A stretch of 64,000 nucleotides of DNA from Sphingomonadaceae bacterium (GTDB lineage Bacteria; Pseudomonadota; Alphaproteobacteria; Sphingomonadales; Sphingomonadaceae), in the NCBI GenBank assembly GCA_947463325.1, contig CANHQT010000003.1:1-64000 (forward strand), in the 5' to 3' direction. The notes beneath the pieces were generated by a model, which searched no databases, was not told where the DNA came from, and saw only the letters and a list, made by a program, of their open reading frames with translations. Shown one piece after another: positions 11,558 through 45,529 of this stretch. A program made the translations under genes and the position numbers. The first letter of the stretch is position 1. Every line of letters begins with the position of its first letter.

Positions 11558-12805
11558 ATGCCCGAAGCCTATATCATTGACGCTGTTCGTACCCCGCGCG
11601 GGATCGGCAAGCCGGGCAAGGGCGCGCTGTCGCACCTGCACCCGCAGCATCTGGCTGCGGCCGTGCTGAAGGCGCTGAAGGATCGCAACGACCTCAAGAC
11701 CGAAGAGGTCAATGACATCATCTGGTCGACCTCCACCCAAAAGGGCAAGCAGGGCGGCGACCTCGGCCGCATGGCAGCGCTCGACGCCGGCTATGATGTC
11801 CGGGCATCGGGCGTGACGCTCGACCGTTTCTGCGGCGGCGGTATCACCTCCGTGAACCTTGCCGCAGCGACAATCATGTCCGGCATGGAAGATCTCGTCA
11901 TCGGCGGCGGGACCGAGATGATGAGCTATACCCAGACCATCGCCGCGGAAGAGGCCAATGCCGGCATCAAGCCGATGGGTATCGGTTCAGGCAATATGCG
12001 TCTGATGATGAAGCATCCGCAGAGCCATCAGGGCGTGTGCGGTGACGCCATCGCGGCGATGGAGGGCATCAGCCGCGCCGATGTCGACGCGCTCGGCTTT
12101 GACAGCCAGCAGAAAGCCAAGCGCGCGATTGAGGAAGGCCGCTTCGCCAAGAGCCTGGTCACCGTCTATAATGACGATGGCTCGGTCGCGCTCGACCATG
12201 AGGAGTTCCCGCGCCCCGACACGACGCTGGAGGGCCTTGCAGGCCTCAAGGCGAGCTTTGACGGGATTGCCGATTTCGATCTGGGCGGCATGACATTCAG
12301 GAAGCTCATCCAGATGAAATATCCCGACCTGCAATGGTCGGGCGTGCACCATGCGGGCAATAGTTCAGGTGTGGTCGATGGCGCGGCGGCAGTGCTGCTC
12401 GCGTCCAAGGACTATGCCGAGAAGAACGGCCTGAAGCCCCGCGCGCGGATCGTCGCTTTCGCCAATGTCGGCGACTGCCCGACCCTGATGCTCAACGCCC
12501 CGGTGCCGGCAGCGAAGAAGGTGCTGGCCAAAGCGGGCCTGACGCCCGACGACATCGACCTGTGGGAGATCAACGAGGCGTTCGCCGTGGTCGCTGAAAA
12601 GTTCATCCGCGACCTCAAGCTCGATCGCGAAAAGGTGAACGTCAACGGCGGCGCCTGTGCCCTCGGCCACCCGATCGGCGCGACCGGCTCCATCCTCATC
12701 GGCACGGTGCTCGACGAGCTCGAGCGACGCGACCTCAAGCGCGGCCTCGTCACCATGTGCGCCGCTGGCGGCATGGCCCCGGCAATCATCATCGAGCGGG
12801 TCTGA
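11558..12805 (+). CDS. Acetyl-CoA C-acyltransferase (thiolase)
   Basis: A 415-residue thiolase. The nucleophile C92 lies in DRFCGGG, the W-E-I-N-E-A-F-A motif and G-A-C-A-L-G-H-P-I-G-A-T-G carry the active-site histidines, and the C-terminal MCAAGG has the acid/base cysteine. It would cleave a 3-ketoacyl-CoA to acetyl- or propionyl-CoA, closing the cycle begun by the upstream genes. AAGGAG (11545-11550) is 7 bases before the ATG at 11558. The open frame runs further upstream inside the SDR gene, but the family N-terminus PEAYIIDAVRTPRG starts here. It is the last gene of the operon. Confidence 0.93.
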   Translation: MPEAYIIDAVRTPRGIGKPGKGALSHLHPQHLAAAVLKALKDRNDLKTEEVNDIIWSTSTQKGKQGGDLGRMAALDAGYDVRASGVTLDRFCGGGITSVNLAAATIMSGMEDLVIGGGTEMMSYTQTIAAEEANAGIKPMGIGSGNMRLMMKHPQSHQGVCGDAIAAMEGISRADVDALGFDSQQKAKRAIEEGRFAKSLVTVYNDDGSVALDHEEFPRPDTTLEGLAGLKASFDGIADFDLGGMTFRKLIQMKYPDLQWSGVHHAGNSSGVVDGAAAVLLASKDYAEKNGLKPRARIVAFANVGDCPTLMLNAPVPAAKKVLAKAGLTPDDIDLWEINEAFAVVAEKFIRDLKLDREKVNVNGGACALGHPIGATGSILIGTVLDELERRDLKRGLVTMCAAGGMAPAIIIERV

Positions 12806-12872: not shown

Positions 12873-13690
12873 TCACATGGCGCGAAAGCGAAAGTTGCTG
12901 AACTGTGCCTCGCCTGCTCCGGCTGAATAGAGGCCGGGGCGCAGCATCAGGAACCCGCCGCGCACATTATGGTGATAGCCGGACACCTCCATGCCGCGGT
13001 CAAAGCGGCGCCAGCTCCGGCCGCCATCGCCGCTCGTCTCATAAGTGACGATATGGGCATCATTGGTCACGCGCATCCGTATGCGGCGGCCATGCGGGTT
13101 GGCGGGGCGGGCGCGTTCGATGCCATATTGGTGGGTCACGAACCTTTGCTCGTCAAAGCCGAGACCGCAGTACAGCCGCTCATCATAAAAGAGCAGCAGA
13201 CCGGCGGTGCCGCCCGGTGCGATTTCGATATCGCATTCGAAACTGTAGCGCAGATCACCGGCAATCAGCAGCAAAGGCGATGAACTGGACGGCGCCACCC
13301 CGCGTGCGGCGAGATGGAGGATATTGTCTGCCACCCGCACTCGCGTCTGCTCATCAGGGGCGGGCTTGAAGAAGTTCCATTTGGTGCCGAGGCGCAGCGC
13401 ATCGAAATCATCCGACAAGGGCTGGCCATGTGGGCCTGATTTCTCTCCGCCCACAGGATTGGCTATCGGCTGGGACAGATCACCCCCGCGCATTTCGAAC
13501 CAGCCATCGTCTGTCCAGACGACCGGATCGAGCAACGCCTGGCGGCCGAGCGTCCAGAACCCCTGTTCATAACCATGATAGACTGACCACCAATCGCCTG
13601 CCGGCCCTTCAACCAGCGTCGCATGGCCGCGCGACCACCAGCGTTCTGCCGCCGAGAGGGTGCGCACCAGCGGATTGCGCGGGTTCATGA
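12873..13690 (-). pseudogene. GH43-type glycosidase, 5'-truncated remnant
   Basis: About 270 C-terminal residues of a family-43 glycoside hydrolase (beta-xylosidase/arabinofuranosidase type). NPRNPLVRT...RGHATLVEGPAGDWWSVYHGYE is the last part of the five-bladed propeller, including the GHA.LV histidine region. It is followed by the C-terminal beta-sandwich (LSDDFDALRLGTKWNFF onward to the stop). The propeller N-terminus, with its catalytic aspartate and glutamate, is missing. Upstream of about 13690 the frame only runs antisense through the dctM remnant. The sequence switches to dctM exactly where homology ends, so the gene was truncated by a rearrangement and cannot be functional. Confidence 0.8.
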
Positions 13691-14046
13691 CCCAGAACCC
13701 ATTGCTGACGTTGCTGATCATCAACCTCATGCTGCTTGCCCTTGGCACATTCATGGACATGGCTCCGCTGATTTTGATCACCACGCCGATCTTCCTGCCG
13801 GTGGCGATGGGCGTAGGCGTCGATCCGGTGCATTTCGGCATCATCATGATGCTCAACCTGGGCATCGGCCTTGTCACCCCGCCAGTAGGGTCGGTCCTGT
13901 TCGTCGGTTCGGCGGTGGGGAATATCCCGATCACCGCACTCATGCGGACCATTGCCCCCTTCTATCTCGCGCTGCTGGTGGCGCTGATGCTGATCACTTA
14001 CATCCCCGCCCTGTCGCTCTGGCTGCCGGGTGTCCTTGGCGATTAA
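13688..14046 (+). pseudogene. TRAP transporter large permease (DctM), 5'-truncated remnant
   Basis: About 118 C-terminal residues of a DctM/SiaM large membrane subunit of a TRAP dicarboxylate/sugar-acid transporter. NPLLTLLIINLMLLALGTFMD, the LITTPIFLPV segment and P-V-G-S-V-L-F-V-G-S are typical of the last transmembrane helices of the roughly 430-residue family. The first three quarters of the gene, and any DctP/DctQ partner, are absent. The remnant begins where the oppositely oriented GH43 remnant begins, so the two share a single junction. An in-frame ATG exists near 13687, but a functional product is unlikely. Confidence 0.8.
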
Positions 14047-14163: not shown

Positions 14164-15021
14164 TTACGGCATCACAGTGATCGATATGCGGCGATTTCTG
14201 GGATCCAACGGTGCCTCGGCAATCAGGGGCTCCCGGTCGGCGGCGCCTTCGATACGATAGATGCGAGAGGCCGCGATTCCGCTCTGCAACAGGGTCTGTC
14301 GTGTGACCTCGGCTCGGCTGGAAGACAGCGTCCAGTTATTGACCTCCGCGCCCCGCGGATAGGGGCGGCTGTCGGTGTGGCCCCGAATGATGATCCTGTT
14401 ATCCAGACCGCTCAGGGAACCCGCGACGGCTCGCACCAGCCGCATGGCTTCCGGCTCCAATGTTGTCGTAGACAGGCGGAACATGGAGAAACGCGCCTGA
14501 TCCATGAGATCGATCCTGAGGCCGTCCGCCGTCATGGTCAGTGAAACATGGTCCTGCATTTGGCGCAGCCCCGGGTCCCCCCTGATCGCCCGCTCGATGC
14601 TTTCCCGCACCCCGACAAAGCGGGACTCCGGTGTCGGGGCGTTGGGTGTGGCTTCGCTCGGCCCACCTGTCGCATCATGGGGAACCACAATCGAACGATT
14701 GCCGGTTTGCTGCATCCGGTTGGGGTAATTCCCCGAGGCGATGATGCTATCGCCGCCCAATATTCCGTTGGAGCCCGCACTTTCCTGTCGATATTCGATC
14801 AAGGTCGGAGCGAAATAGTCCGCCAGGCCCTTGCGCTTCTGCTCATCAGTCATGCCCAGCAGCCACATGAGCATGAAGAAGGCCATCATCGCAGTCACGA
14901 AATCGGCATAGGCAATCTTCCATGCGCCACCATGGTGCGCATCATGCCCGGCCTCGATGACCTTCTTTACGATGATGGGCCGAAGCGCTTCACGTCCCTG
15001 ACTGAAAAGCTCCGGCTTCAT
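14164..15021 (-). CDS. motB: Flagellar stator protein MotB
   Basis: A 285-residue stator subunit with one N-terminal transmembrane helix. GGAWKIAYADFVTAMMAFFM contains the proton-carrying aspartate D40. The N-terminal P-I-I-V-K-K-V motif is characteristic of MotB. The periplasmic C-terminal OmpA-like domain (about 150-280) has R-G-H-T-D-S and N-N-W-T-L-S-S-S-R-A for peptidoglycan binding. It anchors the stator to the cell wall and forms the ion channel with MotA. The start overlaps the motA stop by 4 bases. Confidence 0.95.
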   Translation of the reverse strand: MKPELFSQGREALRPIIVKKVIEAGHDAHHGGAWKIAYADFVTAMMAFFMLMWLLGMTDEQKRKGLADYFAPTLIEYRQESAGSNGILGGDSIIASGNYPNRMQQTGNRSIVVPHDATGGPSEATPNAPTPESRFVGVRESIERAIRGDPGLRQMQDHVSLTMTADGLRIDLMDQARFSMFRLSTTTLEPEAMRLVRAVAGSLSGLDNRIIIRGHTDSRPYPRGAEVNNWTLSSSRAEVTRQTLLQSGIAASRIYRIEGAADREPLIAEAPLDPRNRRISITVMP

Positions 15022-29841: not shown

Positions 29842-30921
29842 TCAGCGGGCCATATTATACTTGTTCATTTTCCCGATCAGGGTGGTGCGCTGGATTCCCA
29901 GCAGACGAGACGCCTCTGCAATGACCCCGTCCGCCAGTTCGAGGGCGTCCAGAATATATTGGCGTTCGATGTCTTCTATGATGCGGTTCATATCCAGCTT
30001 GCCCGCCCTATCCAGCGCGGGAAGACTGGAATCCATCCTTGGATCCTCCCCTGCCCTGGACGGCGCAACATGAGCGAGGGCGGCGTTCGGCACCGGCGAA
30101 GGGGTGTGCGACAGGGCTGATCGCCGGCGGGGCGTGAGGTTGATGAGATCCGCCGCATCCGCAGCGTCAATCGTCTTGCCCCCGAACAAGAGCATCGCGC
30201 GTTCGACAAAGTTGCGAAGCTCGCGGACATTGCCCGGCCAATTGTAGCTCTGGATGTACGATACAGCAGACGCACTGAGGCTGAAGGGCTGTCCGCCAAA
30301 GCCGGCTTGGAAATGGTCCACCAGCAGCGTCAAATCTTCCGGTCTTTCGGCAAGTGACGGCATGATGATCGGAAACACCGCAATGCGATAGAAAAGATCT
30401 TCGCGAAACAGCGAGGATTCGATCGCGAGATCAAGGTCCTTGTGGGTTGCGCACACCAGGCGCACGTCAATCGCAAGATCACCCGTCGCCCCGACCCGCT
30501 GAACCTTGCGTTCCTCCAGAACGCGCAGGAGTTTGACCTGCATCGCCATCGGCATGTCACCGATTTCATCAAGAAACATGGTGCCGCCGCTCGCCTCTTC
30601 GAAGCGGCCTACCCGACGCTGGATCGCACCCGTAAACGCACCCTTTTCGTGCCCGAACAGCTCGGATTCAAGAAGGTCGGCGGGAATAGCGCCGCAGTTC
30701 AAAGCCACCAGAGGATTTGTACGCCGGTTGCTCGAACTGTGGATTGCGCTGGCCACAAGTTCCTTACCCGAACCCGATGGTCCGGTAATGATAACCGAAG
30801 CGTTTGAAGGCGCGACGCGTGTTATTGCTTCACGAACCTGCCGGATACCATGCGACCTGCCGACAAGCATGTTCTGCATGCGGTATGAACTGAATGATAC
30901 AAGATCAGATATTGCAGACAT
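29842..30921 (-). CDS. Sigma-54-dependent flagellar regulator (FlbD/FleQ-like, no receiver domain)
   Basis: A 359-residue NtrC-family activator. The AAA+ domain begins almost at the N-terminus: Walker A GPSGSGKE at about 47-54, the sigma-54 contact loop GAFTGA at 94-99, Walker B MFLDEIGD at about 115-122, and NWPGNVRELRN near 230. A Fis-type helix-turn-helix closes the protein (RLLGIQRTTLIGKM). No receiver or GAF-like input domain is present; only about 18 residues precede the AAA+ core. It lies amid four sigma-54 flagellar promoters and is their obvious activator. Control may come from expression level or a partner protein. Confidence 0.9.
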   Translation of the reverse strand: MSAISDLVSFSSYRMQNMLVGRSHGIRQVREAITRVAPSNASVIITGPSGSGKELVASAIHSSSNRRTNPLVALNCGAIPADLLESELFGHEKGAFTGAIQRRVGRFEEASGGTMFLDEIGDMPMAMQVKLLRVLEERKVQRVGATGDLAIDVRLVCATHKDLDLAIESSLFREDLFYRIAVFPIIMPSLAERPEDLTLLVDHFQAGFGGQPFSLSASAVSYIQSYNWPGNVRELRNFVERAMLLFGGKTIDAADAADLINLTPRRRSALSHTPSPVPNAALAHVAPSRAGEDPRMDSSLPALDRAGKLDMNRIIEDIERQYILDALELADGVIAEASRLLGIQRTTLIGKMNKYNMAR

Positions 30922-31254
30922 TCAGCGTGGCCCGAACAAATTTTTCCATTACAATCGTGTTGACATGCGTATCGGTAACAGATTGCTTTCGATACATCCG
31001 TTATCGACCTATCCTGCTTTTGCACGGTGCTATGTCCGCCCTAAATTTCAATTATTTCCTTTGGTAAAGAGGAATTAGGGCGCAGATTGAGATGAATTAT
31101 TTGGTCCGTTTGTGATCGAAATCGTTACCGAATCGTAATCACAGGCGCCGTTTTGGGTCGATCATCGTCCCAATCAGGGAACATATGCCCGCGGCTGACG
31201 ATATTGATCGGGCAGCCGGTTTGCAGCCGGCTAGGCAGGCTGCGCTATCCGTCG
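30922..31254. other. Regulatory intergenic region between the flagellar regulator and fliS
   Basis: No gene is supported. The stretch is AT-richer than its surroundings. It holds the upstream region of the regulator gene and an extended inverted repeat: GCCCTAA (31038-31044) pairs with TTAGGGC (31075-31081), and inside it TTCCT (31056-31060) pairs with AGGAA (31070-31074). No sigma-54 element was found for the regulator, consistent with a top-tier housekeeping promoter. Confidence 0.45.
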
Positions 31255-31644
31255 CTATTTGATGGCCTGCCAAGCATCCGCAATCTCGGCAATCATGGCT
31301 CTTGCATCGTGTATAAGCGCGGGGTTGTTGTCACGGGACGCCTGCATGATCAACCGCCTCGCTTCACGGTAGATCGCCGCCAAGGAGTTGGCGAGCTCGG
31401 GAGCGGCCTCAAAGTCGAGGCTGCTGTCGAGGCTATGCAGTATCGTAAGCGCACGCGACTGCCTTGCCGCATATTGGGCATGCATGCGCGCACGATGGGC
31501 GATCGGCATGGCCTCCAAGGCCAGCAACAGTTCATCGAACAGGATAGACACCAGTTCATGCGGCGATGCCGAGGCAACGCGGCTGGTGAACGCGATCCAC
31601 CGATAGCTCTGATCCGCAGCGCGGTTGGCGGGTTTACCGTACAT
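31255..31644 (-). CDS. fliS: Flagellin export chaperone FliS
   Basis: A 129-residue helical chaperone. S-P-H-E-L-V-S-I-L-F-D-E-L-L-L-A-L-E-A (about 27-45) is the FliS family block. It binds the C-terminus of flagellin in the cytosol to prevent premature polymerisation. It follows fliD by 11 bases, the usual pairing, and ends the long fli operon. Confidence 0.88.
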   Translation of the reverse strand: MYGKPANRAADQSYRWIAFTSRVASASPHELVSILFDELLLALEAMPIAHRARMHAQYAARQSRALTILHSLDSSLDFEAAPELANSLAAIYREARRLIMQASRDNNPALIHDARAMIAEIADAWQAIK

Positions 31645-31655
31645 ATCCAGGCTCT

Positions 31656-33266
31656 CTAATCATTGCTTCTGGACCACATCCGAATCTGCTGATCCAGATA
31701 GTTTTGGGTGGCCTTGAACGACGAAACGCGGACATCCATGGCCGTGAATGATTGCAGCAATTGCGAATAATATTTGCCTGACTGAACCTCGAGCTTTTCG
31801 CGGTCTTCCGCGATGCTCCTGGCCTCCACCGCAAAGCCGGCCCGCGCCGAAGCGACAGCGCCGCTGGGTGCCTGGATGGATCTCTGTATCTGGGACAGCA
31901 TGCCGGACAGGCCTGGCTCGATCGTGATCGTCGCCGCATTGACCCCGGCCTCTACGCCAACGATCAAGCCCAGAGCGCGCGATGACGCGGGTGCGACGAG
32001 GTTGACCCCGACACCGGTCATGGCGACGCCGTCAATCCTGCCGGATGCTGCAACGCCCCCGCTGGCGGCAACCAAGTCGGTCAGTTCATAGCGGCCCGGG
32101 GCGACGCGATCAGGCGAACTCTTGATGACCACCCGGGGATCGCTGCTGAGCTGCTTCGGGTTGAAGAATCCCTCTATCGCATCCGGGAACCGCGCCAGCA
32201 TATCCGTCAGCCGCGCGCGATCGAGCGACAGGGAACCGTCGCGGTTGGTGCGCACCCCGATTTCCGCGAGGGTCTGCGGGCCGCCGGGGTCACCGACCAG
32301 CTTGGCGGTGGTGATTTCAGCAAATTGTTTGCGGATAGCCGTCACTGCCGTGTTGCCGCGCAAGGCACCGCTGCTGCCACCCTGCCCCGCTGCCAGCGCC
32401 GCATTCAGTTTGGTCATGACCTGGTTGAACGCATCAACGAAGTCACCCACCGCCTGACTGATGGCTTCATTGGGGCGGCTGACCGTGGTTTGCGCGATGA
32501 CGCCCGGCTTTTCCGCTGTCAGTTCAAACTGCAGGCCTTCGACCAAATCACGGACCAGGTTCGACGGCCGGGTGACCTGAACACCATCAATCCGCATGAT
32601 CGCATCCTGCGCGGCGACCGTCTGGTTCATGTCCGATACGATGCCGGCACCAAAGGCGAATTGCGCCAGCTGGGGCTCTGCATCATTCGCAGCCGTGAGG
32701 GTGAAACTGTTCGCCGCGCCCGCGCTTCCCTTGACCACAAGCCTTGCGCCAGTGCTGTCCGTGACGACCGAGGCCGAGATACCAAGGCCGGCCTGATTGA
32801 TGGCGCCAGCCAGACCGGTCAGGGAATTGTTGCTGTCATCAATGGTGATGGCCGCGCTCCCCGCCGATGTGGCCAAGGTCAACGTGCCCCTCCCCACGGC
32901 CGACAATCGGCTTGCCAGCGGCGCCGATTCCAGCGTCTGGCCTTTGGCCAACTGGCGCACCTCAAGGGAAAAGGCGTTGAGGTTGGCAGTCGATCCGGCA
33001 ACCGTCGTAACTTTGGCCAGCGACGGATCGGACAGGCTGACCTGCTTGCGCAGCGAGCCGCCGCGGACCAGTGTCGCCAAGGCAGAGGAAAAACTGCTGA
33101 CGCTCGATGCCACATCGGCAAGGCTCGAGATACGGGCCTCATTGGCGGCCTCACGCTTGGTTATCGCGGCTTCCCGCGGCGCTTTCACCGCGGCTGACAG
33201 GCGCTCCGCTATCGCCCTCACATCGATACCCGATCCGGCACCCAGTGCATTGGTGATATTGGTCAT
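31656..33266 (-). CDS. fliD: Filament cap protein FliD
   Basis: A 536-residue filament-capping protein (HAP2). The N-terminal G-A-G-S-G-I-D-V-R-A-I-A-E-R-L is the FliD_N signature, and the C-terminal coil with QSGKYYSQLLQSFTAMD closes the FliD_C domain. It caps the filament and folds incoming flagellin. The ATG at 33266 overlaps the stop of a small upstream ORF (33263-33400), implying coupled translation. Confidence 0.92.
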   Translation of the reverse strand: MTNITNALGAGSGIDVRAIAERLSAAVKAPREAAITKREAANEARISSLADVASSVSSFSSALATLVRGGSLRKQVSLSDPSLAKVTTVAGSTANLNAFSLEVRQLAKGQTLESAPLASRLSAVGRGTLTLATSAGSAAITIDDSNNSLTGLAGAINQAGLGISASVVTDSTGARLVVKGSAGAANSFTLTAANDAEPQLAQFAFGAGIVSDMNQTVAAQDAIMRIDGVQVTRPSNLVRDLVEGLQFELTAEKPGVIAQTTVSRPNEAISQAVGDFVDAFNQVMTKLNAALAAGQGGSSGALRGNTAVTAIRKQFAEITTAKLVGDPGGPQTLAEIGVRTNRDGSLSLDRARLTDMLARFPDAIEGFFNPKQLSSDPRVVIKSSPDRVAPGRYELTDLVAASGGVAASGRIDGVAMTGVGVNLVAPASSRALGLIVGVEAGVNAATITIEPGLSGMLSQIQRSIQAPSGAVASARAGFAVEARSIAEDREKLEVQSGKYYSQLLQSFTAMDVRVSSFKATQNYLDQQIRMWSRSND

Positions 33267-33400
33267 GCCAGCCGCTCCCGTGCAGGAGCAGTGCCGGACA
33301 GCAGAACCCGAACGGACGATCCGACGCGAAGCGGCCGCGCAACCGGCACGCCGGCGAAACCAGACTCTCCGATTTCTTTGGCAAGACCCGTGTCGGTCAC
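33263..33400 (-). CDS. Small ORF translationally coupled to fliD
   Basis: A 45-residue ORF (M/V-TDTGLAKEIGESG... to ...ARERLA). It starts at GTG 33400 with an excellent ribosome site, CAGGAGA, 7 bases upstream, and its TGA overlaps the fliD ATG. It occupies the place often taken by flaG upstream of fliD but shows no FlaG motif. It may be a real micropeptide or a leader that tunes fliD translation. No homologue is recognised. Confidence 0.5.
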   Translation of the reverse strand: MTDTGLAKEIGESGFAGVPVARPLRVGSSVRVLLSGTAPARERLA

Positions 33401-33436
33401 CGACTGTCTCCTGACATATCCATCCATGCGATCTGA

Positions 33437-33461
33437 AACGTTTCTATTGGCTGCAAATTAA
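33437..33461 (-). promoter_or_regulatory. Candidate sigma-28 promoter for the fliD unit
   Basis: On the minus strand TTAA (33461-33458, overlapping the flhB stop), 17 bases, CGTT (33440-33437), about 37 bases before the small ORF. It allows late expression of fliD-fliS apart from the fliE operon. Confidence 0.55.
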
Positions 33462-34594
33462 GCCATCGGTCGGCCATCGGCATCGAAGCGGGCCCCCTCT
33501 GGAACGGCTGCAACATTGGCGACGTTCGCAAGATCATGACGCCTTTCAACATTGAGGACGAAGGCAAGCACGACAGCGACGGTGGCGAACAAATCCTCAC
33601 GGATCACCTGCCCGTTACGCCCGGTGAAATAGATTGCGCGGGCAAGGACAGGGTGACTGACGATCGGCACCGCTTGTTCCTTCGCATAATCCTTGACGGC
33701 CTGCGCAGCGGCGCCCCGCGTCCTGGCGACAATCACGGGCGCGAAATCCACCCCCTGATTGTACCGCAGCGCAACCGCGAAATGATCTGGATTGGTGATG
33801 ACCATGGTCGCGGAATCAATGGCCTTCCGCATCGAACCGGAGAGCGTTTCATACTGTTTGCGGCGGACAGCGGCCCTTAGCTCCGGCGAACCTTCGGTCT
33901 GCTTATACTCGTCCATCAACTGCTGGCGGGTCATCATCAGGCGGCCCTTGCGCCGGAAAAATTCGATGGGAATATCGATGAGGGCGATGGCGATGAGGGC
34001 AGCAGCCATTGCGATCAGGGTCAGGGTCATCCCCGTTCCGAGCATCGCCAGCTGGGCCTGCGGATCAATGCCCTGATCATTCCCAAGCATGCGCCACTGG
34101 GAATAGAAGACGCCAATGCCGACGATGCCGATGAACAGGGCCTTGGCCAATGATTTGCCCAGTTCGATCAATCCCTGCAGCCCGAACATCCGCTTGAGGC
34201 CAGCGATGGGATTGACGCGCGACCATTTCGGCTGCGCCAGGCTCGCCCTAAAGTGCATCGAGCCGAGCACCGCCGAAGGCAGGATCGTTGCCGCCGTGAC
34301 GATGCCAATCAGGATCGCCAGAGGGAGCGCGATGGAAACGACGAGTTTCTCTGTCGCAAGACCGGGATCGAAATCCCGTATGTCCTTGGCATCAAGCGTC
34401 AGTCCGGTCTGCACCATGGCCAGCAATTCGCCGAAAATCCATGAGCCGATGACCGTCAGCCCGATCAGGCCAGACGCGGACACCAGCGCAACCGCGAGTT
34501 CCTTCGATTGCAGGAAATCGCCTTCCTTTTCGGCTTCGCGCAACCGCTTGGGTGTCGGATCAAACGACCGTTCGCCACTTTGTTCCTCTGCCAT
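33458..34594 (-). CDS. flhB: Export switch protein FlhB
   Basis: A 378-residue export-apparatus protein. FDPTPKRLREAEKEG is the N-terminal signature; four transmembrane segments follow, then a cytosolic domain with the autocleavage site. That site reads N268-P269-D270-H271 instead of the near-universal NPTH. The adjoining HFAVALRYNQG...APVIVARTRG is canonical. It sets substrate specificity between hook and filament export with FliK. The start overlaps the fliR stop by one base. Confidence 0.95.
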   Translation of the reverse strand: MAEEQSGERSFDPTPKRLREAEKEGDFLQSKELAVALVSASGLIGLTVIGSWIFGELLAMVQTGLTLDAKDIRDFDPGLATEKLVVSIALPLAILIGIVTAATILPSAVLGSMHFRASLAQPKWSRVNPIAGLKRMFGLQGLIELGKSLAKALFIGIVGIGVFYSQWRMLGNDQGIDPQAQLAMLGTGMTLTLIAMAAALIAIALIDIPIEFFRRKGRLMMTRQQLMDEYKQTEGSPELRAAVRRKQYETLSGSMRKAIDSATMVITNPDHFAVALRYNQGVDFAPVIVARTRGAAAQAVKDYAKEQAVPIVSHPVLARAIYFTGRNGQVIREDLFATVAVVLAFVLNVERRHDLANVANVAAVPEGARFDADGRPMA

Positions 34595-35367
34595 TACCTG
34601 TCTCCGGCGAGGCGCATGGCCATTTCAAAGCTCAAATCCAGCGCGGCGGTGATCGACTGGGCCATGACCGGCAGGCCGACGAGCATGAGCGCAAAACCGG
34701 CAAGCGTGGCGGCCGGCAGACCGACGGCAAAGAGATTGAGCTGGGGGGCAGACCGGCTGAGCATCCCCATGATGATCTGGATCAGCACGACAGCGAAGGC
34801 GACCGGCACAGCGATGGCCAATCCCGCCGAAAAGGCCGCCCTGCCGAAACTCGCAATATCCCAAAAGAAACTGCGCTCCGGCATGATCCCGAGGGGATAG
34901 CCATCATAACTCAAGCGGATGGCCTGGATGAGCAGAAGGTGGCCGTCTGCCGCGAAGAACAGGAACGCCGTAAGCAGCGTGAGCAACTGGCTGAGGGCGG
35001 GATTGCTTTGCGACGTAGAAGGATCAACCATGCTCGCAAAGCCGAGGCCCATGGCGTTGGCAATGACCTCTCCGGCGATGGTGGCTGCTGCATAGGCGGT
35101 CTGAATGATGAGGCCCAAGCCAAGGCCGACGATTACCTCGCCGACAATAACCAGCAGCATATCCACGCTGAGCAGTTCCGGAGGCCTGATCTCGACAGAA
35201 CCACCCAGAAACACGGAAATGGCGAAAGCGAGAATGATGCGCAGCTGGACGGGGACAATGGCGGACCCGAATATCGGCGCCACCAGCATGGCTGCGCCCG
35301 GCCGGATCATGCCCAAGGCCCACGCAAGCAGCTGCGGCTCAATCGAGGCAAAGCCGTCGGGGATCAC
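34594..35367 (-). CDS. fliR: Export gate protein FliR
   Basis: A 257-residue polytopic membrane protein with six predicted helices; length and the GMIRPGAAMLVAPIFG region, then V-P-V-Q-L-R-I-I-L-A-F-A-I-S, fit FliR. The C-terminal part PVAFAVVLIQIIMGMLSRSAPQLNLFAVGLP is the family's strongest block. Position fliP-fliQ-fliR-flhB is the conserved order; it overlaps fliQ by 4 bases. Confidence 0.94.
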   Translation of the reverse strand: MIPDGFASIEPQLLAWALGMIRPGAAMLVAPIFGSAIVPVQLRIILAFAISVFLGGSVEIRPPELLSVDMLLVIVGEVIVGLGLGLIIQTAYAAATIAGEVIANAMGLGFASMVDPSTSQSNPALSQLLTLLTAFLFFAADGHLLLIQAIRLSYDGYPLGIMPERSFFWDIASFGRAAFSAGLAIAVPVAFAVVLIQIIMGMLSRSAPQLNLFAVGLPAATLAGFALMLVGLPVMAQSITAALDLSFEMAMRLAGDR

Positions 35368-35636
35368 CTGACGACGTCCGGAATCCGGTCATAAATCTCG
35401 CGGGTGAAATCGACGAACAATCCCATGATGCTGGCACCGAAGATGGCCAGGCATACGCCGATCACGATCAGCTTAATGACAAACGCCAGTGTGGCCTCGT
35501 TGATCGAAGTCGCCGCCTGAATGAAGCCGACGACCAGACCCGTGATCAGAGCCGGCACCAGGATGGGGATGCACGCAAGCCCCAGAACCCAGAGCGCACT
35601 TTGCGTGACCGAAATGAAGTAACCGGAATCGGCCAT
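35364..35636 (-). CDS. fliQ: Export gate protein FliQ
   Basis: A 90-residue protein with two transmembrane helices. ALITGLVVGFIQAATSINEATLAF is the FliQ signature, and length matches exactly. The ATG at 35636 (MADSGYFISVTQ) begins the family N-terminus; the open frame extends 16 codons further but into fliP. Confidence 0.95.
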   Translation of the reverse strand: MADSGYFISVTQSALWVLGLACIPILVPALITGLVVGFIQAATSINEATLAFVIKLIVIGVCLAIFGASIMGLFVDFTREIYDRIPDVVR

Positions 35637-35638
35637 GG

Positions 35639-36421
35639 CTAGGTCACAAACGAATTTGCGAGCGTCCCCATGGTCAGCGCCCAACCATCAACCAGCACGA
35701 ACAGCAGCAGCTTGAACGGCATGGAAATCAGGGTCGGGGACAGCATCATCATGCCGAGCGCCATCAAGGTCGCGGAGACAACGAGATCGATCACCAGAAA
35801 CGGCAGGAAGATCAGGAAGCCGATCATGAATGCCGTCTTCAATTCACTCGTGACAAAGGCCGGAAGCAGGGTCGTGAAGGGAACATCCTCGGGCGAGGCA
35901 TAGGTTTCACCCCCGGCCATTTCAGCGAAAAGCTTGAGATCCGCCTCTCGCGTCTGTTTCAGCATGAAGGCGTGCAGCACTTCACCGGTCCGGACGATCG
36001 CCGTTTCCATGGTGATCTCGCCGCTCTGGTAGGGCTGATAAGCCTCGACCCCGATTTGGTCGATCGAAGGCTTCATGACAAAGAGCGAGAGAAAAAGAGC
36101 AAGCCCCACCAGCACCTGGTTGGGCGGCGTCTGGGTCAGCCCCAAAGCCTGCCGCAGGATCGAAAGGACGATCAGGATGCGGGTGAAACAGGTCATCATC
36201 AGCAGAATGGTGGGCAGGACCGCGAGCAGGCTCATCAGCAGCAGAAGCTGCAACGACATGCTGAGCGACTGGTTTTCGAAGCTGATGCCGGCCAGCGCCG
36301 AGCCGAGCGCGCGCGACTGGCTGCCCGCTGCCAGAACCGGCGCGGCGTTTGTCAGAAGCAGGATCGAGCCGGCAATGATGGCGGAGCGTGCCGCCATTGT
36401 GCGGAATTCAGTCCTTTTCAT
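35639..36421 (-). CDS. fliP: Export gate protein FliP
   Basis: A 260-residue export-gate protein with a cleavable signal (about 1-32). [15 protein letters not shown], then [18 protein letters not shown] and [13 protein letters not shown] are FliP hallmarks. I chose the ATG at 36421 (MKRTEF), which overlaps the fliO end by 14 bases and has a GGGG stretch upstream; 36397 is an alternative. Confidence 0.95.
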
Positions 36422-36713
36422 CGGATGCCCCATCGTCAATGGACCGGTCCTCGTTCGGCGAGGGGCTGACCTGCTGCTGCGACAAGCGAACGATCCCGCT
36501 GCGCGAAATCGCAAGCAGGATATGCTTGTCACCGAAGGCCACGACCGCCAGCTTCTGGCTGGGTGACATGGCAAGCGTTTCCACAATCCGGAGCAGTTTC
36601 TTGCCCTTGGGACCCTGCAGCTCATGGTAGCGCTTGAGCAAGAATAAGGAGCCCACCGCCAGACCGACGACCAGCGCCAGCATCAGCACAAGCTTGAGAA
36701 TATAGTAGGTCAT
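36408..36713 (-). CDS. fliO: Flagellar assembly protein FliO
   Basis: A 101-residue bitopic protein: one N-terminal transmembrane helix (about 5-26), then a cytosolic part with [29 protein letters not shown], the FliO domain. It helps FliP assembly into the gate. It directly follows fliN without a gap, in the conserved fliNOPQR order. Confidence 0.88.
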
Positions 36714-37046
36714 CTAGCTGCGGCGCTCCTGATTGAGGCTGCCCACACCGCCGGACACAACATCGATAATCCTGATGCCGAAGCGGTTGTTGACCGTGAC
36801 GACCTCACCCTTGGCGATCAGCGTACCGTTGGCCATGATGTCGAGCAGTTCATGCGCCTGCCGGTCCAGTTCGACGATACTGCCTTCGGCAAGATCGATC
36901 AGCTGCTGCAGCCTCAGCGAGGTACTGCCGACTTCCACCGACAGCCGGACCGGAATGTCCGCCAGAATTGCCAGATTCTTTTGTACCAGCATGTCGGCAG
37001 GGCCAGTTTCGCTGACAGCTTCGAATGTGGTTTCTTGAATGGTCAT
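36714..37046 (-). CDS. fliN: Motor switch protein FliN
   Basis: A 110-residue C-ring protein consisting of the SpoA domain. I-P-V-R-L-S-V-E-V-G-S-T-S-L-R-L-Q-Q-L-I-D-L and GTLIAKGEVVTVNNRFGIRI are the defining blocks. It has a short N-terminal tail compared with E. coli (137 residues). With FliM and FliG it forms the rotor switch. The start overlaps the fliM stop by 4 bases. Confidence 0.94.
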   Translation of the reverse strand: MTIQETTFEAVSETGPADMLVQKNLAILADIPVRLSVEVGSTSLRLQQLIDLAEGSIVELDRQAHELLDIMANGTLIAKGEVVTVNNRFGIRIIDVVSGGVGSLNQERRS

Positions 37047-38164
37047 CGGATGGGATCCTTCGAATGCATGATTTCGATCTTGAACGCGGCGCGTCCATTA
37101 TGCTCACCAATAGTTCCCAGCGCGATTTCACGCTCCTGGACAATAAGCGGAACCATTGATGAAAGATTGACCGGAATAATGTCTCCGGGAGACAATTTTA
37201 TCAGTTCACTCATGTGAAGATCAGGTCGCGCCAAGACTGTTCTAGCCTTGAATCGTATTTCGCGAACGGCCTTATGAAGATTGCGGCGCCATTCATGGCC
37301 ACGCGGGCCATGTTCGTCCTTATTTGACGTAGCGAGATCTCTTTCCACATGCCGCAGCGTCGCAATGGGATAGATTAGATCGATGCTGGAAGGTTGCCCG
37401 GAGTTGAACTCGAACACGAAACGAGCGACCGCCATCGTCTCTTCGGAACGGGCGAAGGTGGCATAGCCAACGTTCGATTCCCGGGTGCGCAATCGAAACG
37501 AGGCTGGCACGATTTCGCGCCACACTTCCTCCAGGGACGCAACCCAAGCCTGAAACAGCTTTTCAATCATCTTCTCTTCGGTGGGCGTGAACTCCTTGGC
37601 GCAGGTCGGCTGGATGTTTCCCGAACCACCATAATAGGTATCCACCAGTCGGCTGATCAGCATGGGCTCGATGACGAGGCCAACCAGACCATTGTGCGGC
37701 ATGAAGGCCATCACTGAGAGGCTGGAGAAATCTGACTGCGCCTCTTGCCATTCCTTGAAGGTCAGCGTCTGGATCTGCTGCGGGATCACCTTGAGCTTGG
37801 TGCGCGCCAGCGGTTCAACGGTCGTCCTGAGCCGCCGCGCCAACCGCTCGTTCATGCGGTCCAGAGCCGGCAAAGCAGAGGTGGTGGCACAGGATTCCGC
37901 CCCCAGCTTGAAGGGCATCGCCACCGCAGCAGCCGACCCATGGTCGCGTTCGGCAGTCGATGCCGCAATGTCGCCATCCTGCGGCTGCCCGCCATCAGCA
38001 GGGCCGGACACTGCGGTCACCCAGTCCAGGCCAGGCGACGCCGAGGCCGGCAAATCCTCAGCCGGTGCCTTGCGGCTCTTGGCCGGTTGCGCCTTTGCCG
38101 CAACCTCCGGCGAGCCTTCGACAGCCTGCTGGGCCGACTTCGTCGATGCTTTCCGCTTGGTCAT
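37043..38164 (-). CDS. fliM: Motor switch protein FliM
   Basis: A 373-residue switch protein. A long N-terminal extension (about 1-85, rich in Ala/Pro/Lys) precedes the CheC-like middle domain (LARRLRTTVEPLARTKLKVI; MAFMPHNGLVGLVIEPMLIS; YYGGSG) and the C-terminal SpoA domain with LSPGDIIPVNLSSMVPLIV. The N-terminal CheY-binding LSQDEID motif of other FliM proteins is not evident in the extension. Confidence 0.92.
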   Translation of the reverse strand: MTKRKASTKSAQQAVEGSPEVAAKAQPAKSRKAPAEDLPASASPGLDWVTAVSGPADGGQPQDGDIAASTAERDHGSAAAVAMPFKLGAESCATTSALPALDRMNERLARRLRTTVEPLARTKLKVIPQQIQTLTFKEWQEAQSDFSSLSVMAFMPHNGLVGLVIEPMLISRLVDTYYGGSGNIQPTCAKEFTPTEEKMIEKLFQAWVASLEEVWREIVPASFRLRTRESNVGYATFARSEETMAVARFVFEFNSGQPSSIDLIYPIATLRHVERDLATSNKDEHGPRGHEWRRNLHKAVREIRFKARTVLARPDLHMSELIKLSPGDIIPVNLSSMVPLIVQEREIALGTIGEHNGRAAFKIEIMHSKDPIR

Positions 38165-38730
38165 TGGGTTACCAGACTGGTGAAATAGACGCTGTCGATG
38201 CCGCCGAAGCCTTCGCGCTGTTCAAGCACGCGGTTGATCGCGACCGTCAGCTGCTGCTTGAGCTGTTCCTTGCCCTGCGTAGTCGTGATCAGGACGGGAT
38301 CCTGTTCTGCCAGGGTCATCAATACGGCGGAGCGGATCGCCAGTTGATGGGTCTCGACGTTCGCGACAACCTGGTCGTCATAGTATGTGGACAGGGCCAG
38401 CCCGATTTGGACAAAGGCGCCCCCGCCCTTCAGATTGGACGTGAAATTGTCTGTGACGGGGATGTAGGTTGCCTGGAACACGCGCGGATCGACCCGGCCT
38501 CGCCGCGCAGCGCGCGTAGCCGCGGTAATCTGTTCGTCGGTGGCGTCCTCACGTGGGCGCAACTGGGGCAAGGCCGGGTCATCCTCGGCAGCAGCCGGCT
38601 GCTGGGTGCCACCGAAGAAATAGAAGGTCGTGGCGGCCGTCGCCGCGACAACAACCAAAATCACGGCACCGAAGAGCAATATCTTCTTCAGCTTGCCGCC
38701 TTTGGGTTTGGGGGTAACGTCATCAGCCAT
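38161..38730 (-). CDS. fliL: Flagellar basal-body protein FliL
   Basis: A 189-residue bitopic protein: cytoplasmic N-terminal lysine-rich tail, one transmembrane helix (about 16-40), a Pro/Asp-rich linker and a periplasmic stomatin-like FliL domain with GGGAFVQIGLALS and the GFGGIDSVYFTSLVTQ C-terminus. It surrounds stators in other species. The start follows fliK by 10 bases. Confidence 0.9.
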   Translation of the reverse strand: MADDVTPKPKGGKLKKILLFGAVILVVVAATAATTFYFFGGTQQPAAAEDDPALPQLRPREDATDEQITAATRAARRGRVDPRVFQATYIPVTDNFTSNLKGGGAFVQIGLALSTYYDDQVVANVETHQLAIRSAVLMTLAEQDPVLITTTQGKEQLKQQLTVAINRVLEQREGFGGIDSVYFTSLVTQ

Positions 38731-38740
38731 CTGTCAGTCC

Positions 38741-39877
38741 TCAAGCAAATCTGTCAGTCACGCGGCCCGGACCGCGCCCTTCCTGGATCGAATGGCGGTC
38801 AGTGCTCGACCAGTCCTGCCGATCACTTTCCTTTCTCTGGTGTTCTCCCTGCCCACGGCCGGGGTTGCCCTGACCTTGTCCGGAGAAGATATGGGCTTCG
38901 ACGTCGCGCAGACCTGCGTGGCGGACATCGGCCATCAGTCGCGGCTGGGCATCCTGCAGCGCGACGAGGGAGGCGTTGTTGGCAACCGCCATGGAGACGG
39001 TTGTCTTGTCGGCCGCATTCTGCACCTCGACGTCAATCTTGCCGAGCGAGGACGGGTCCAGCCTGAACCGCAGCGTTCGATGGTCTGAGGTGATGGCGGC
39101 AATTTCTCGGGTAAGGCCTTCCAACCAGGCTTCGGACTGACCCAGATCTCCGGCGATAAGCGAAGCCTGCGACGGTGCCGGCGTGCCGGTCGCCACCTGC
39201 GCCGCACGCGGTGCGCCAGGCGCAGCCGCAGCGGCAAGAGCCACACCGAAGCTCGACCCGCTGTCGGCAGCCGGAAGCATGGCCGAAAGCGCCATGGCAG
39301 AGGCGTTGCCCGGTTGCGGCAGGCCATCACCATTCGCACCCTGCCCCGACAAGGCTGGCAATGGCGCTGCGCCCACCGGAGCGGTCTTCGCAGGCTCGGC
39401 AGCGCCATAAGAAGCAGGCCGATCCTGACCGGAGGACCGCGCCAAAAGCAGGGTCTGAATGCGCTTGACGAGATCGGCCGCGCTATAAACTTCGCCTTCT
39501 GCCGCATCCGGCGGGAGCGCAGGACCAGCGCGTTCCTCACCATCGGTTGCAAGCAGAAGGCTGTCCGGCTTGACCGAAGTCGCCGGGCCCCGCCCTTTCG
39601 GCGGTGTTTGAAGCGGGGCCGGATTGTCACCCTTCCCGCACGCCTGAGGCAGGCCCAACGCCAGCATCAGGGCCAAAGCATCCTCGCCACCTGCCGCGCT
39701 CTTGGCGGGCGGGGCATCGGCCACAGCCGGGCCGTCTCCGCGATCGTGAGAACCAGTGCCAAGCAGCATGGCAAAGGATGCAGCGGTATCGCCCGATACG
39801 GTGCACGGGTTCACCGGCGCATCCTCCGCCGTCGAGGCAGTTGGCGCGAGGCTGGCAGAAACGGCCGCGACCATCAT
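38741..39877 (-). CDS. fliK: Hook-length control protein FliK
   Basis: A 378-residue low-complexity Ala/Pro/Gly-rich protein with a conserved C-terminal Flg_hook domain at about 265-345: LRFRLDPSSLGKIDVEVQN followed by RLMADVRHAGLRD. The variable N-terminus is the molecular ruler, and the C-domain triggers FlhB switching. The start overlaps the fliJ stop by 4 bases. Confidence 0.88.
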   Translation of the reverse strand: MMVAAVSASLAPTASTAEDAPVNPCTVSGDTAASFAMLLGTGSHDRGDGPAVADAPPAKSAAGGEDALALMLALGLPQACGKGDNPAPLQTPPKGRGPATSVKPDSLLLATDGEERAGPALPPDAAEGEVYSAADLVKRIQTLLLARSSGQDRPASYGAAEPAKTAPVGAAPLPALSGQGANGDGLPQPGNASAMALSAMLPAADSGSSFGVALAAAAAPGAPRAAQVATGTPAPSQASLIAGDLGQSEAWLEGLTREIAAITSDHRTLRFRLDPSSLGKIDVEVQNAADKTTVSMAVANNASLVALQDAQPRLMADVRHAGLRDVEAHIFSGQGQGNPGRGQGEHQRKESDRQDWSSTDRHSIQEGRGPGRVTDRFA

Positions 39878-40305
39878 GGGCGGTCCTCCCGCAAGGCGAA
39901 AGCCGCGCGCCGCCGGGAGAAGGTCGACTGCCGCTTACGGTCCTGTGCCTCCCACTCGGCATCGGCTTTGCCCAAAAGCCTTTTCGCGCCTTCATGCGCC
40001 TGTTCGGCAACAATGCGCTGATTATCCTGCACCAGATGGGCTTCGCTCGCCTTGCGACAGAGCTGGTCCAGATGGACGCTGACATGATCGAGCCGGGACG
40101 CCATTTCCGCATGGCGGGCAAGGGCCGCTCCGCAAGTCGGGCCCACCGATATCTCCATCGACGCCCTCAGGCTGCGCACCCGTTCCTGGCTGTCCTCTAC
40201 TTTGGCCAGTTCGGCACGTGACCGAATATATGCACCGACGGCGATGTCGTGCTGCACCTTCCTCACCCGGAGCATGCGTTTGCGGGATGTGCGCTTGGCG
40301 TTCAT
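39874..40305 (-). CDS. fliJ: Flagellar export protein FliJ
   Basis: A 143-residue helical coiled-coil protein (MLRVRKVQHDIAVGAYIRSR onward). FliJ sequences diverge strongly, so the call rests on length, predicted coiled coil, and the fixed fliH-fliI-fliJ-fliK order. It would couple FliI to FlhA. It overlaps fliI by 4 bases. Confidence 0.75.
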   Translation of the reverse strand: MNAKRTSRKRMLRVRKVQHDIAVGAYIRSRAELAKVEDSQERVRSLRASMEISVGPTCGAALARHAEMASRLDHVSVHLDQLCRKASEAHLVQDNQRIVAEQAHEGAKRLLGKADAEWEAQDRKRQSTFSRRRAAFALREDRP

Positions 40306-41657
40306 GACTGGACCAGCTCCGCAAGGTCGACGCGGGACTGCTCAAAGGAGACGCACTGGCCTGCCTCTTGCGACAGAAAGGCCAGCACTGCGGCGCGCTT
40401 CGCAATGGCTTCATCAATATCCGCGTCAGTTCCGGGGGCATAGGCACCCATCAGAATGAGATCGCGATTGGATTCATAGGCAGACCAGAGGCGCCGCACT
40501 TCGCGAGCCGCAAAGACATGGTCCGGCTCGGCAACGTCACTCATCACCCGGCTAAGGGACTTGCCGATATCGATAGCCGGATACACCGACTGCTCGGCGA
40601 GGCTACGCGAAAGCACGATATGGCCATCCACGATCGCCCGTGCCGCATCCACAATCGGATCGTCGGTATCGTCGCCATCGGCCAGAACGGTGTAGATGGC
40701 GGTGATTGAACCGCCGCTGCTCTCGTCATTCCCGGCCCGTTCGACCAGCCGAGGGATCAGCCCAAGCGCGGAGGGCGGATAGCCTTTGACCGTGGGCGGC
40801 TCTCCGAGCGACAGGCCGATTTCCCGCTGGGCGTGAGCGACACGCGTAAGGCTGTCGAGCAGAAGCAATACCTTCAGCCCCTTTGACCGGAAATATTCCG
40901 CTATGGCGGTTGCGCGCATGGCTGCCCGCAACCGGAGCATGGGGGCGTGATCAGCAGGGACAGCGACCACAGCAGTCTTCGCGCGAACATCCGCCGGAAG
41001 CTTGGTTCCAACAAAGTCGCTGACCTCGCGTCCGCGTTCGCCGATGAGCCCCACCACGATGACATCGGCTATCGAACCGGCCATGATCTGGCCCATCAGC
41101 ACGGATTTTCCGACACCCGACCCGGCAATGATGGCGATGCGCTGACCGATCCCTGCAGTCAGCAAGGCGTTGATGGCGCGCACGCCGACATCAAAGGGTT
41201 CGGTTACGCTGGCACGGTTGAGCGGATTGCCAGCGCGACCGTGGAGCGGCCAGCGCCCGGAGGTCAGCACGGGCCCCAACCCGTCGAGCGGTTCACCCAG
41301 CGCATCGACGATCCGACCGAGCAGACCCATGCCCACACTGATATCGCCGTCGGCACTGTCAGGCCGGATCAGCGACCCGTTGACCAGCGCAGGATCGGCA
41401 TCAAGGCACATCAACAGGCAGCGCGGGCCCCGGAAGCCGACGACTTCAGCCCTGACCGAGCGGCCATGTGCCGGTTCGACAGTGACCGCAGAGCCAACCG
41501 GAAGCGTCAGCCCCGTCGCTTCCAGCATCAGGCCGTCGAAGCTTTCCAACCGGCCGAGAGGCCGCGGCCCGAGCTGGCCGCGAACACTGGTCAGGTCGAG
41601 TTGCGCCGCAGCTTCGAGCAGAGCATTTCCTTCGGTGCGAGAGGCGAGATCAAGCAT
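40302..41657 (-). CDS. fliI: Flagellum-specific ATPase FliI
   Basis: A 451-residue type III ATPase. Walker A is G-S-G-V-G-K-S (about residue 166), with the family block IAIIAGSGVGKSVLMGQIM; L-I-G-E-R-G-R-E-V and LLLLDSLTRVAHAQREIGLSLGEPP follow. It assembles as a hexamer at the export gate with FliH and FliJ. The ATG at 41657 (MLDLASR) has AGGGGC 6 bases upstream; an in-frame TTG at 41663 is less likely. Confidence 0.96.
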   Translation of the reverse strand: MLDLASRTEGNALLEAAAQLDLTSVRGQLGPRPLGRLESFDGLMLEATGLTLPVGSAVTVEPAHGRSVRAEVVGFRGPRCLLMCLDADPALVNGSLIRPDSADGDISVGMGLLGRIVDALGEPLDGLGPVLTSGRWPLHGRAGNPLNRASVTEPFDVGVRAINALLTAGIGQRIAIIAGSGVGKSVLMGQIMAGSIADVIVVGLIGERGREVSDFVGTKLPADVRAKTAVVAVPADHAPMLRLRAAMRATAIAEYFRSKGLKVLLLLDSLTRVAHAQREIGLSLGEPPTVKGYPPSALGLIPRLVERAGNDESSGGSITAIYTVLADGDDTDDPIVDAARAIVDGHIVLSRSLAEQSVYPAIDIGKSLSRVMSDVAEPDHVFAAREVRRLWSAYESNRDLILMGAYAPGTDADIDEAIAKRAAVLAFLSQEAGQCVSFEQSRVDLAELVQS

Positions 41658-42288
41658 GGCCAAGCCCCTGATGTTGAAGGGCGGCTTTGAGCTGCTGCAA
41701 TCTCAGTTCCGGTCCATCCTCGATCCCGCCACTGGCTGTGAGGACCCGGAATTCCCCGCGCCCGAGCGCGTGGTTGATTTCGACCGTCATGGCGAGGCTG
41801 GCCGTATCGAGGGCCTGGGCATCCAGAGGATTGAGTTCGAGCACAGCCGGCTGTGTGACAGTGACGACCGCTTCAGCCGCAGCCACGATCCGGGCCTGCA
41901 ACAGCGCGGGGTCAGGTTCTGTCACGGCCAGGACATCGCGCAGCACGGCATCGATCACCGTGGCGAGCAAGACGGCAAGATCGCGACTCTCGCAGGGCCT
42001 GAGCTGTTCGAGGCCGGACACGATGTTTCCGAGGGCTTCGATCGTGTGCCGGGTTTCCTCTTCGGCCTGGACCGAACCATCCGCGAAACCCCGGTCATAG
42101 GCATTGCGCAGCGCCGCCTCCTCCGGGTCACGCCGATGGTCCGCGTCTGCGGCGCCCGCCGGGTCGGTGGCCGGCCCGGAACCGAAGATGCCATCAACCC
42201 ATGGCGCAAACTCCGCACGCAGCTGATCAAGCAGGAAGCCATTGACAGCGAGGCGATCCGATTCCGCAGGCCGGAAGAGTTTAGACAT
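41650..42288 (-). CDS. fliH: Flagellar assembly protein FliH
   Basis: A 212-residue protein with a central helical stretch (EAALRNAYDRGFADGSVQAE) and a C-terminal domain similar to V-ATPase E subunits (VLRDVLAVTEPDPALLQARI onward). FliH sequences are poorly conserved; placement between fliG and fliI and the helical architecture support it. It overlaps fliG by 8 bases and fliI by 8 bases. Confidence 0.85.
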   Translation of the reverse strand: MSKLFRPAESDRLAVNGFLLDQLRAEFAPWVDGIFGSGPATDPAGAADADHRRDPEEAALRNAYDRGFADGSVQAEEETRHTIEALGNIVSGLEQLRPCESRDLAVLLATVIDAVLRDVLAVTEPDPALLQARIVAAAEAVVTVTQPAVLELNPLDAQALDTASLAMTVEINHALGRGEFRVLTASGGIEDGPELRLQQLKAALQHQGLGHA

Positions 42289-43312
42289 AGTCCTCTCCCC
42301 TGCCGGCCAGCATCAGCGCGCCGGAATCGGCCAGCCTGCGGGCGATGGTCAGCATTTCCTTCTGTGCTTCCATGACCTCTGCGAGGCGCATTGGGCCGCG
42401 GTCTGCCATGTCGTCGCGGATGGAATCTGCGGCACGGCTGGACATGCAGCCGAACATCTTGTCGCGCAGCCGCTCGTCGGCCCCCTTCAGAGCGACGACC
42501 AGAATTTCATTCTCCACATTGCGGAGGAGGATGCCGAGATTCTTGTCATCGAGCGCCATCAGGTCTTCGAAGACGAACATTTCGTCCTCGATCCTCTGCG
42601 CCAGTTTCTGGTCGAGCGTGTTCAGCGTCTTGATGATGCGCTGATCATTGCCCGGGCGGGTATTGTTCATGATCTTGGCCGCCTCGCTCGCTCCGCCACG
42701 TGCTGCTGCGGGGGCGGTCGCTATCCGCGCCATCTGGTGGAGAAGTGTCTCCTCCAGTTCGGCGAGCGCCTCTCCGCTGACGGTATCGAGGGTGGCGACG
42801 CGGTAAACGACATCGGCCTGCATCTCGACTGGCAGCAACTGCAGAACGTCCGCCGCAATGGGCGGCTCGAGATGGGCGAGTACAATCGCCGCGATCTGCG
42901 GATGCTCGTGCTCGATCAGGCCAGTGATGGTCTTGCTGTCCATCCAGCGCAGGGCATCGAGCGAGCGGCTTCGTTGCGGCGGCGTGATCCGGGCGAGGAC
43001 GGTCTCTGCCCGGTCGACGCCCAGGGCATGTTCCATCACCGCACGGATGCGCGGCGCAGCGCCAAAGCCGATGGTGGTCCGCACGCGCGCGCGATCAGTG
43101 AATTGGGTGAGCACATCGTCGACATGCTCCTCGCTCACGTCCACGACATGAAACATGGCGCGACCGAGATGCTGGACCTCATGCGGTTCCAGGTTGCTCA
43201 ATATCTCTGCGGCCTCCTGATCACCCAGCAGCATCAGGAGAATGGCCGCGACCTCGCTGCCCGAAAGGGTAGAGGTGTCCTGTTCCTTTTCCGTCGTTTC
43301 AGGCTCAGCCAT
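42281..43312 (-). CDS. fliG: Motor switch protein FliG
   Basis: A 343-residue rotor protein with three armadillo-like domains. SEVAAILLMLLGDQEAAEIL is the N-terminal block, E-H-P-Q-I-A-A-I-V-L-A-H-L (about 120-135) the middle EHPQ motif, and the FVFEDLMALDDKNLGILLRN region with the charged torque helix (LKGADERLRDKMFGCMSSRA) the C-terminus. The ATG at 43312 follows GGAGG by 6 bases, overlapping fliF by 8; a start at 43336 would be deeper inside fliF. Confidence 0.95.
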   Translation of the reverse strand: MAEPETTEKEQDTSTLSGSEVAAILLMLLGDQEAAEILSNLEPHEVQHLGRAMFHVVDVSEEHVDDVLTQFTDRARVRTTIGFGAAPRIRAVMEHALGVDRAETVLARITPPQRSRSLDALRWMDSKTITGLIEHEHPQIAAIVLAHLEPPIAADVLQLLPVEMQADVVYRVATLDTVSGEALAELEETLLHQMARIATAPAAARGGASEAAKIMNNTRPGNDQRIIKTLNTLDQKLAQRIEDEMFVFEDLMALDDKNLGILLRNVENEILVVALKGADERLRDKMFGCMSSRAADSIRDDMADRGPMRLAEVMEAQKEMLTIARRLADSGALMLAGRGEDYV

Positions 43313-45370: not shown

Positions 45371-45423
45371 CTGAACCCTCGGCTGCATAGGCACGACGCT
45401 CTCCGCGCCGCAGACGCGAAAAC

Positions 45424-45439
45424 AGCAAAAGGCGTGCCA
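45424..45439 (-). promoter_or_regulatory. Sigma-54 promoter for the fliE operon
   Basis: On the minus strand TGGCACG-CCTT-TTGCT, full consensus with GG-N10-GC spacing, about 54 bases before fliE. It drives the basal-body/export operon. Confidence 0.88.
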
Positions 45440-45529
45440 GTCCCAGAATTTCGCGATTTTCCGTACCTTGCGTGCAGCGGTCTGTCCGGATTTCGTCGCG
45501 ATCCGACGATTTTCTGACTCCCCCCCTGT

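Follow-up and report, generated by a model that had tools for sequence, protein, structure and literature searches.

In eroding bacterial genomes, illegitimate recombination leaves deletion scars in which two unrelated gene remnants are joined at a single point and the missing parts are gone from the genome. A pair of gene ends in a 64,000-nucleotide stretch of DNA from a Sphingomonadaceae bacterium (the window) resembles these scars in both respects, but here the remnants stand head to head and may be the product of more than one event. The two genes, a GH43 glycosidase and the TRAP transporter permease gene dctM, are known together and intact from an erythrobacter-like locus with the order TonB-dependent receptor, BD-FAE-type esterase, GH43, dctP, dctQ and dctM, followed by convergent genes for altronate dehydratase (UxaA), glucuronate isomerase (UxaC) and an enzyme of the mannitol-dehydrogenase family (assigned from the frames and, for genome G162, from Pfam). 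Plasmid pCME4A9I of Croceicoccus marinus is an annotated example, with some additional genes between dctM and UxaA. It holds the same two genes in one locus as the window does, with a dctM 82% identical to the one described here, but its GH43 and dctM are full-length and lie in tandem.

A second type of locus is found in Sphingopyxis, the genus that we take the source genome to belong to. The GH43 genes of these loci (e.g. Sphingopyxis microcysteis Z10-6, locus L064) are about 80% identical to the GH43 fragment over the whole of it, and in most congeners they have the same strand relation and order with respect to motB. Unlike in the window, the GH43 gene is full length with a TonB receptor before it, dctPQM are lacking and, in L064, an MFS transporter precedes UxaC. 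A convergent UxaA follows within 500 bp of GH43 in 24 of 80 named GH43 loci, the carriers being Sphingopyxis records or congeners; some Sphingopyxis loci, L081, L088, L095 and L134 among them, have no UxaA beside GH43. Within the flanks examined, dct genes were found near a GH43 of the Sphingopyxis-type group in none of the 80 loci.

The features around the junction are, in window coordinates:

11558 to 12805, plus strand: thiolase, intact, the left neighbour, ending 67 bp before the GH43 stop codon (Pfam)
12873 to 13683, minus strand: GH43 3' fragment, the end of the catalytic domain plus GH43_C2, with the 5' half missing (Pfam, congener identity)
13680 to 13683, no strand: junction CGGG, a possible 4-bp microhomology (alignment of relatives of both parents)
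13680 to 14046, plus strand: dctM (TRAP transporter large permease) 3' fragment, the last 119-122 or so of about 427 residues (Pfam, relatives' identity)
14164 to 15021, minus strand: motB, intact, the right neighbour, at the flagellar cluster's edge and 117 bp past the stop codon of dctM (Pfam)

A GH43 glycosidase has a complete five-bladed catalytic domain with acidic catalytic residues, whereas the stretch 12873-13683 retains only positions 224-288 of the 288 in PF04616, plus PF17851 (GH43_C2), corresponding to the last 270 or so residues of an enzyme that elsewhere has about 550. In the GH43 of congener G028 the conserved stretches HPDPS and FAPEGPKI start at residues 101 and 252 of 569, and homology to the fragment begins near residue 300, so both stretches belong to the lost half. 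The fragment was matched in 25 of 35 congeners searched (24 at 76-82% identity, G016 at 54%), and the open frame around the homologue is full length, at 537-656 aa, in 24 of these 25; in the remaining one, G010, the frame is cut by the contig end. The permease is equally incomplete: a DctM is a full-length permease with DctP and DctQ partners, whereas 13680-14046 covers only positions 306-413 of the 413 in PF06808 and scores 122 bits against NCBIfam TIGR00786, where the cut-off is 268. Among 396 other genomes of the family, 61 match the dctM fragment (E ≤ 1e-20), the best at 87-88% identity in full-length frames, and the frames over the homologues mostly measure 427-673 aa, with a few shorter or longer. 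Full-length orthologues equal in size to the fragments, which would have spoken against truncation, were thus not what the relatives carry.

The two fragments differ in where their relatives are found. A quick tree of GH43 (112 of 161 rows plus the window row, with duplicates and own-genome loci excluded) places the fragment, on a long branch of 0.36, in a group of Sphingopyxis rows that also includes a single Sphingomonas MAG (no starred set; SH-aLRT 81), and the nearest GH43 found is 82% identical. For dctM, a quick tree built under the same exclusions (32 of 57 rows and, in addition, the window row; 119 columns) leaves most of its forks unresolved, and places the fragment among the family rows that the identities also indicate. 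The dctM fragment was absent from all 35 congeners in the first search, and in a search of 79 congeners only G280 matched, with a different TRAP permease at 34% identity. On these counts (0 of 35 and, apart from the G280 permease, 0 of 79) we rejected the idea that this dctM is an ordinary gene of Sphingopyxis. As a separate observation, the 3.3-kb MAG scaffold L063 (Tagaea sp. CACIAM 22H2 scaffold05088) has a GH43 that is nearly the same as the one in Sphingopyxis genome G028 (dN 0.005, dS 0.04); its presence under a Tagaea label looks like bin contamination.

At the DNA level, similarity of GH43 to congeners ends at 13683 in seven of the eight rows among the matches listed, and at 13654 in the eighth, while similarity to dctM starts at about 13680 in the nearest rows of the junction alignment. 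Compared with intact homologues, both genes therefore lose their 5' parts at one point, at 13680-13684; Pfam, the reading frames and DNA similarity agree on this, and the first-pass annotation had placed the shared truncation of the minus-strand GH43 and plus-strand dctM correctly, near 13685. CGGG stands at the junction in 6 of the 14 GH43 rows listed (two more have CGG, and the ungapped display shifts the other six) and in 5 of the 14 dctM rows listed. Judged from these alignments, a CGGG microhomology is possible, although some aligned relatives lack the motif and four matching base pairs may be coincidence. There are no repeats at the junction, the region having only chance-like ones of 12-14 nt. 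A 33-bp match of the region at C3:99687-99718 falls inside a 506-aa frame that is presumably a class I fumarate hydratase, and was set aside as a chance match.

The missing parts are gone from the genome, an assembly of 2,293,810 bases (2.29 Mb) in 57 contigs that is rated 99.99% complete with 0 contamination. Searches of it with the GH43 N-half, the DctM N-part, DctP and DctQ, and with this bait extended by UxaC and UxaA, gave no match at E ≤ 1. The six-part bait found all its targets in G162 and G063, and the GH43 N-half, UxaC and UxaA in G028, G449 and G016; because G162 and G028 supplied pieces of the bait, the independent controls are G063, G449 and G016. Among the congeners G280 and G489 it gave only weak matches (23-35%).

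The truncation of both genes at one junction, together with the lack of matches to their missing parts and to UxaA and UxaC, leads us to read the junction as a decay scar of a xylan/hexuronate locus: the two gene ends are most likely leftovers of a discarded locus, by ordinary genome decay. This bears out the first-pass annotation insofar as it saw here the scar of a lost sugar or uronate locus (relatives carry the TonB receptor, esterase, GH43, dctPQM, UxaA and UxaC) adjoining the flagellar cluster. Among the literature titles that we searched, none concerned this locus or a Sphingopyxis genome of reduced size.

How the scar arose is a separate matter, and we give a probability of roughly 0.55 to a single illegitimate recombination between divergent GH43 and dctPQM genes that removed both 5' parts and the intervening DNA. 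In the ancestor, an intact leftward GH43 would have had its upstream side toward the flagellar cluster, as it does in most congeners, and a rightward dctPQM operon would have occupied the space between GH43 and motB. A single illegitimate recombination, for which CGGG is a possible site, would have fused the interior of GH43 to that of dctM and in the same event deleted both 5' parts and the DNA between them; UxaA and UxaC would also have gone. The leftovers, which lack the HPDPS/FAPEGPKI part of GH43 and about 70% of the permease, should be inert. The divergent ancestral arrangement, the single event, the microhomology, the recent date and the lack of function are the parts of this explanation that we infer; the divergent ancestor is itself hypothetical, this dctM being absent from all 79 congeners.

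The position of GH43 relative to motB is in agreement with a deletion. GH43 is on the strand of motB in all 19 congeners that have both on one contig, and in 17 of the 19 motB lies on the upstream side of GH43 (15 at 38.8-44.9 kb, two at 233 and 373 kb), while in the other two it is on the opposite side; in five further congeners the two genes lie on separate contigs, and one more lacks a motB match. The window keeps the majority order and orientation, at a spacing of about 0.5 kb, which favours deletion. On the left side, in the eight congeners with both on one large contig (G002, G005, G007, G013, G015, G016, G019 and G023), 0.5 Mb or more separates GH43 from the best match to the thiolase. 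The first-pass annotation had proposed looking for relatives with an intact GH43 and dctPQM between the thiolase and motB: none of the 79 congeners has this arrangement, and none of 27 stretches around dctM or GH43 of other relatives contains thiolase, motA or motB, the same queries having matched control loci. Among the relatives examined, then, none carries both genes at this place, which by the annotation's own rule leaves its interpretation unproven.

The wider neighbourhood has been rearranged as well. In G028 a flagellar block stands between GH43 and motB (in G025, too, it is beside motB). In the window this block is found at 29842-46418, beyond the mot-flg block and largely inverted relative to G028; its displacement and inversion imply that more than one rearrangement took place in the region, a point against the single-deletion reading. 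Viewed over 14164-46418, a block of about 15 kb plus one gene has been shifted across the mot-flg block in comparison with G028 and G025, the block being inverted. The only tRNA of the window, tRNA-Ser(GCT) at 46635-46727, lies directly beyond the last matched gene of the flagellar block (46418). MotB (14164-15021) is only 50-56% identical to its counterparts in the 34 congeners that have it; MotA is 71-73% identical (eight nearest) and the thiolase 76-82% in most congeners.

The arrangement of the two genes elsewhere in the family supports a different course of events. We searched the 61 dctM-bearing family genomes for the GH43 fragment, 20 of them at E ≤ 0.001 and 41 at E ≤ 1e-40, and dropped weak matches (30-37%). 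Strong matches remained in 25 of the 61; taking the best dctM per genome, the two genes are at most 25 kb apart on one contig in 22 of these and unlinked in three. Wherever a close GH43 (70-76%) is linked to dctM, in 17 of 17 genomes, the two are in tandem with GH43 upstream, at an operon spacing of 2.4-2.5 kb in 16 and at 22.5 kb in one. Four genomes with a 58% GH43 have the genes co-directional with dctM upstream at 20.6 kb, and in G335 (GH43 51%, dctM 72%) they are divergent and 14.8 kb apart, which makes G335 the only divergent case of the 22, the other 21 being co-directional. Genomes with a dctM of the fragment's type normally have GH43, where it is linked, directly upstream in tandem, and from a tandem ancestor an inversion is needed to give head-to-head fragments. 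Thus one deletion between divergent intact genes, as the first-pass annotation had it, is possible, with G335 and the motB order speaking for it and the tandem order in all 17 genomes with a close linked GH43 speaking against it.

In the inversion scenario, which we regard as unlikely though a serious competitor, the tandem operon from TonB receptor and esterase through GH43 to dctP, dctQ and dctM was inverted with breaks inside GH43 and dctM, and a later deletion took what remained of the inverted segment, from between the thiolase and the stop codon of GH43. Such breaks yield exactly the head-to-head pair of 3' fragments; the tandem order of the close relatives (e.g. Croceicoccus marinus pCME4A9I, and 16 at 2.4-2.5 kb), the affinity of dctM and the already rearranged neighbourhood all fit. 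It requires at least two events, however, the reciprocal pieces are unmatched in the genome, and the nearest relatives of the GH43 fragment are not those of the dctM fragment, with the reservation that the dctM tree is mostly unresolved. The motB order in congeners, the Sphingopyxis affinity of GH43 and the G335 precedent support the single deletion, which we rate at about two to one over the inversion.

Less probable again is a chimera of assembly or amplification, a join that arose in the sequencing library or during assembly and that the living chromosome lacks. Amplification chimeras typically show inverted joins where a few bases are shared, the assembly is in 57 contigs, and the join is seen only in this genome, its dctM part being found in none of the 79 other genus members. 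Nevertheless, both flanks of the junction are Sphingopyxis-like, and a false join of true loci should leave the other halves in the genome, where none was matched in a 99.99% complete assembly.

The single deletion, or whichever event made the join, was probably recent and followed long selection, judging from the substitution rates. In comparisons with the eight nearest relatives, dN/dS is 0.10-0.14 for the GH43 fragment and 0.06-0.13 for the dctM fragment, within or below the range of the intact thiolase (0.11-0.22) and motA (0.13-0.19), with motB at 0.20-0.34; since dS often exceeds 1, these ratios are a rough guide. The values are somewhat above most of those between relatives (0.07-0.15 for GH43 and 0.02-0.09 for dctM, first ten pairs). 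Low ratios like those of intact neighbours, and the lack of stop codons seen within the two fragment frames, indicate that the break is probably recent.

The same open frames and low dN/dS could be taken to mean that the shortened frames are working genes, either a stand-alone GH43_C2-type protein together with a small membrane protein, or one chimeric frame that runs over the junction. We consider this very improbable: low dN/dS is equally expected after a recent break, HPDPS and FAPEGPKI were in the lost half of GH43, and the long junction-crossing frames (12873-13952, minus strand, and 13660-14046, plus strand) begin in sequence antisense to the other gene. The idea that the join gave rise to a chimeric or shortened product under selection, such as a GH43_C2 sugar-binding protein, and so to a young gene and not debris, is the least credible of all.

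None of these readings is biologically surprising, and what they describe is ordinary genome erosion. Most of the 79 congeners have genomes of 3-5 Mb. Of the six smaller than 3 Mb, five are less than 90% complete and the sixth is G280 (2.3 Mb, 99%). In G280 and in G489 the GH43 N-half was unmatched at E ≤ 1 and the other parts of the locus matched only weakly, from which the xylan/hexuronate locus may have been lost more than once in the genus. The scar described here records that a small-genome bacterium has lost this locus, in a genus whose other genomes are mostly of 3-5 Mb; the loss is, to judge by the low dN/dS, probably recent, and a sister strain with an intact locus would allow it to be dated.
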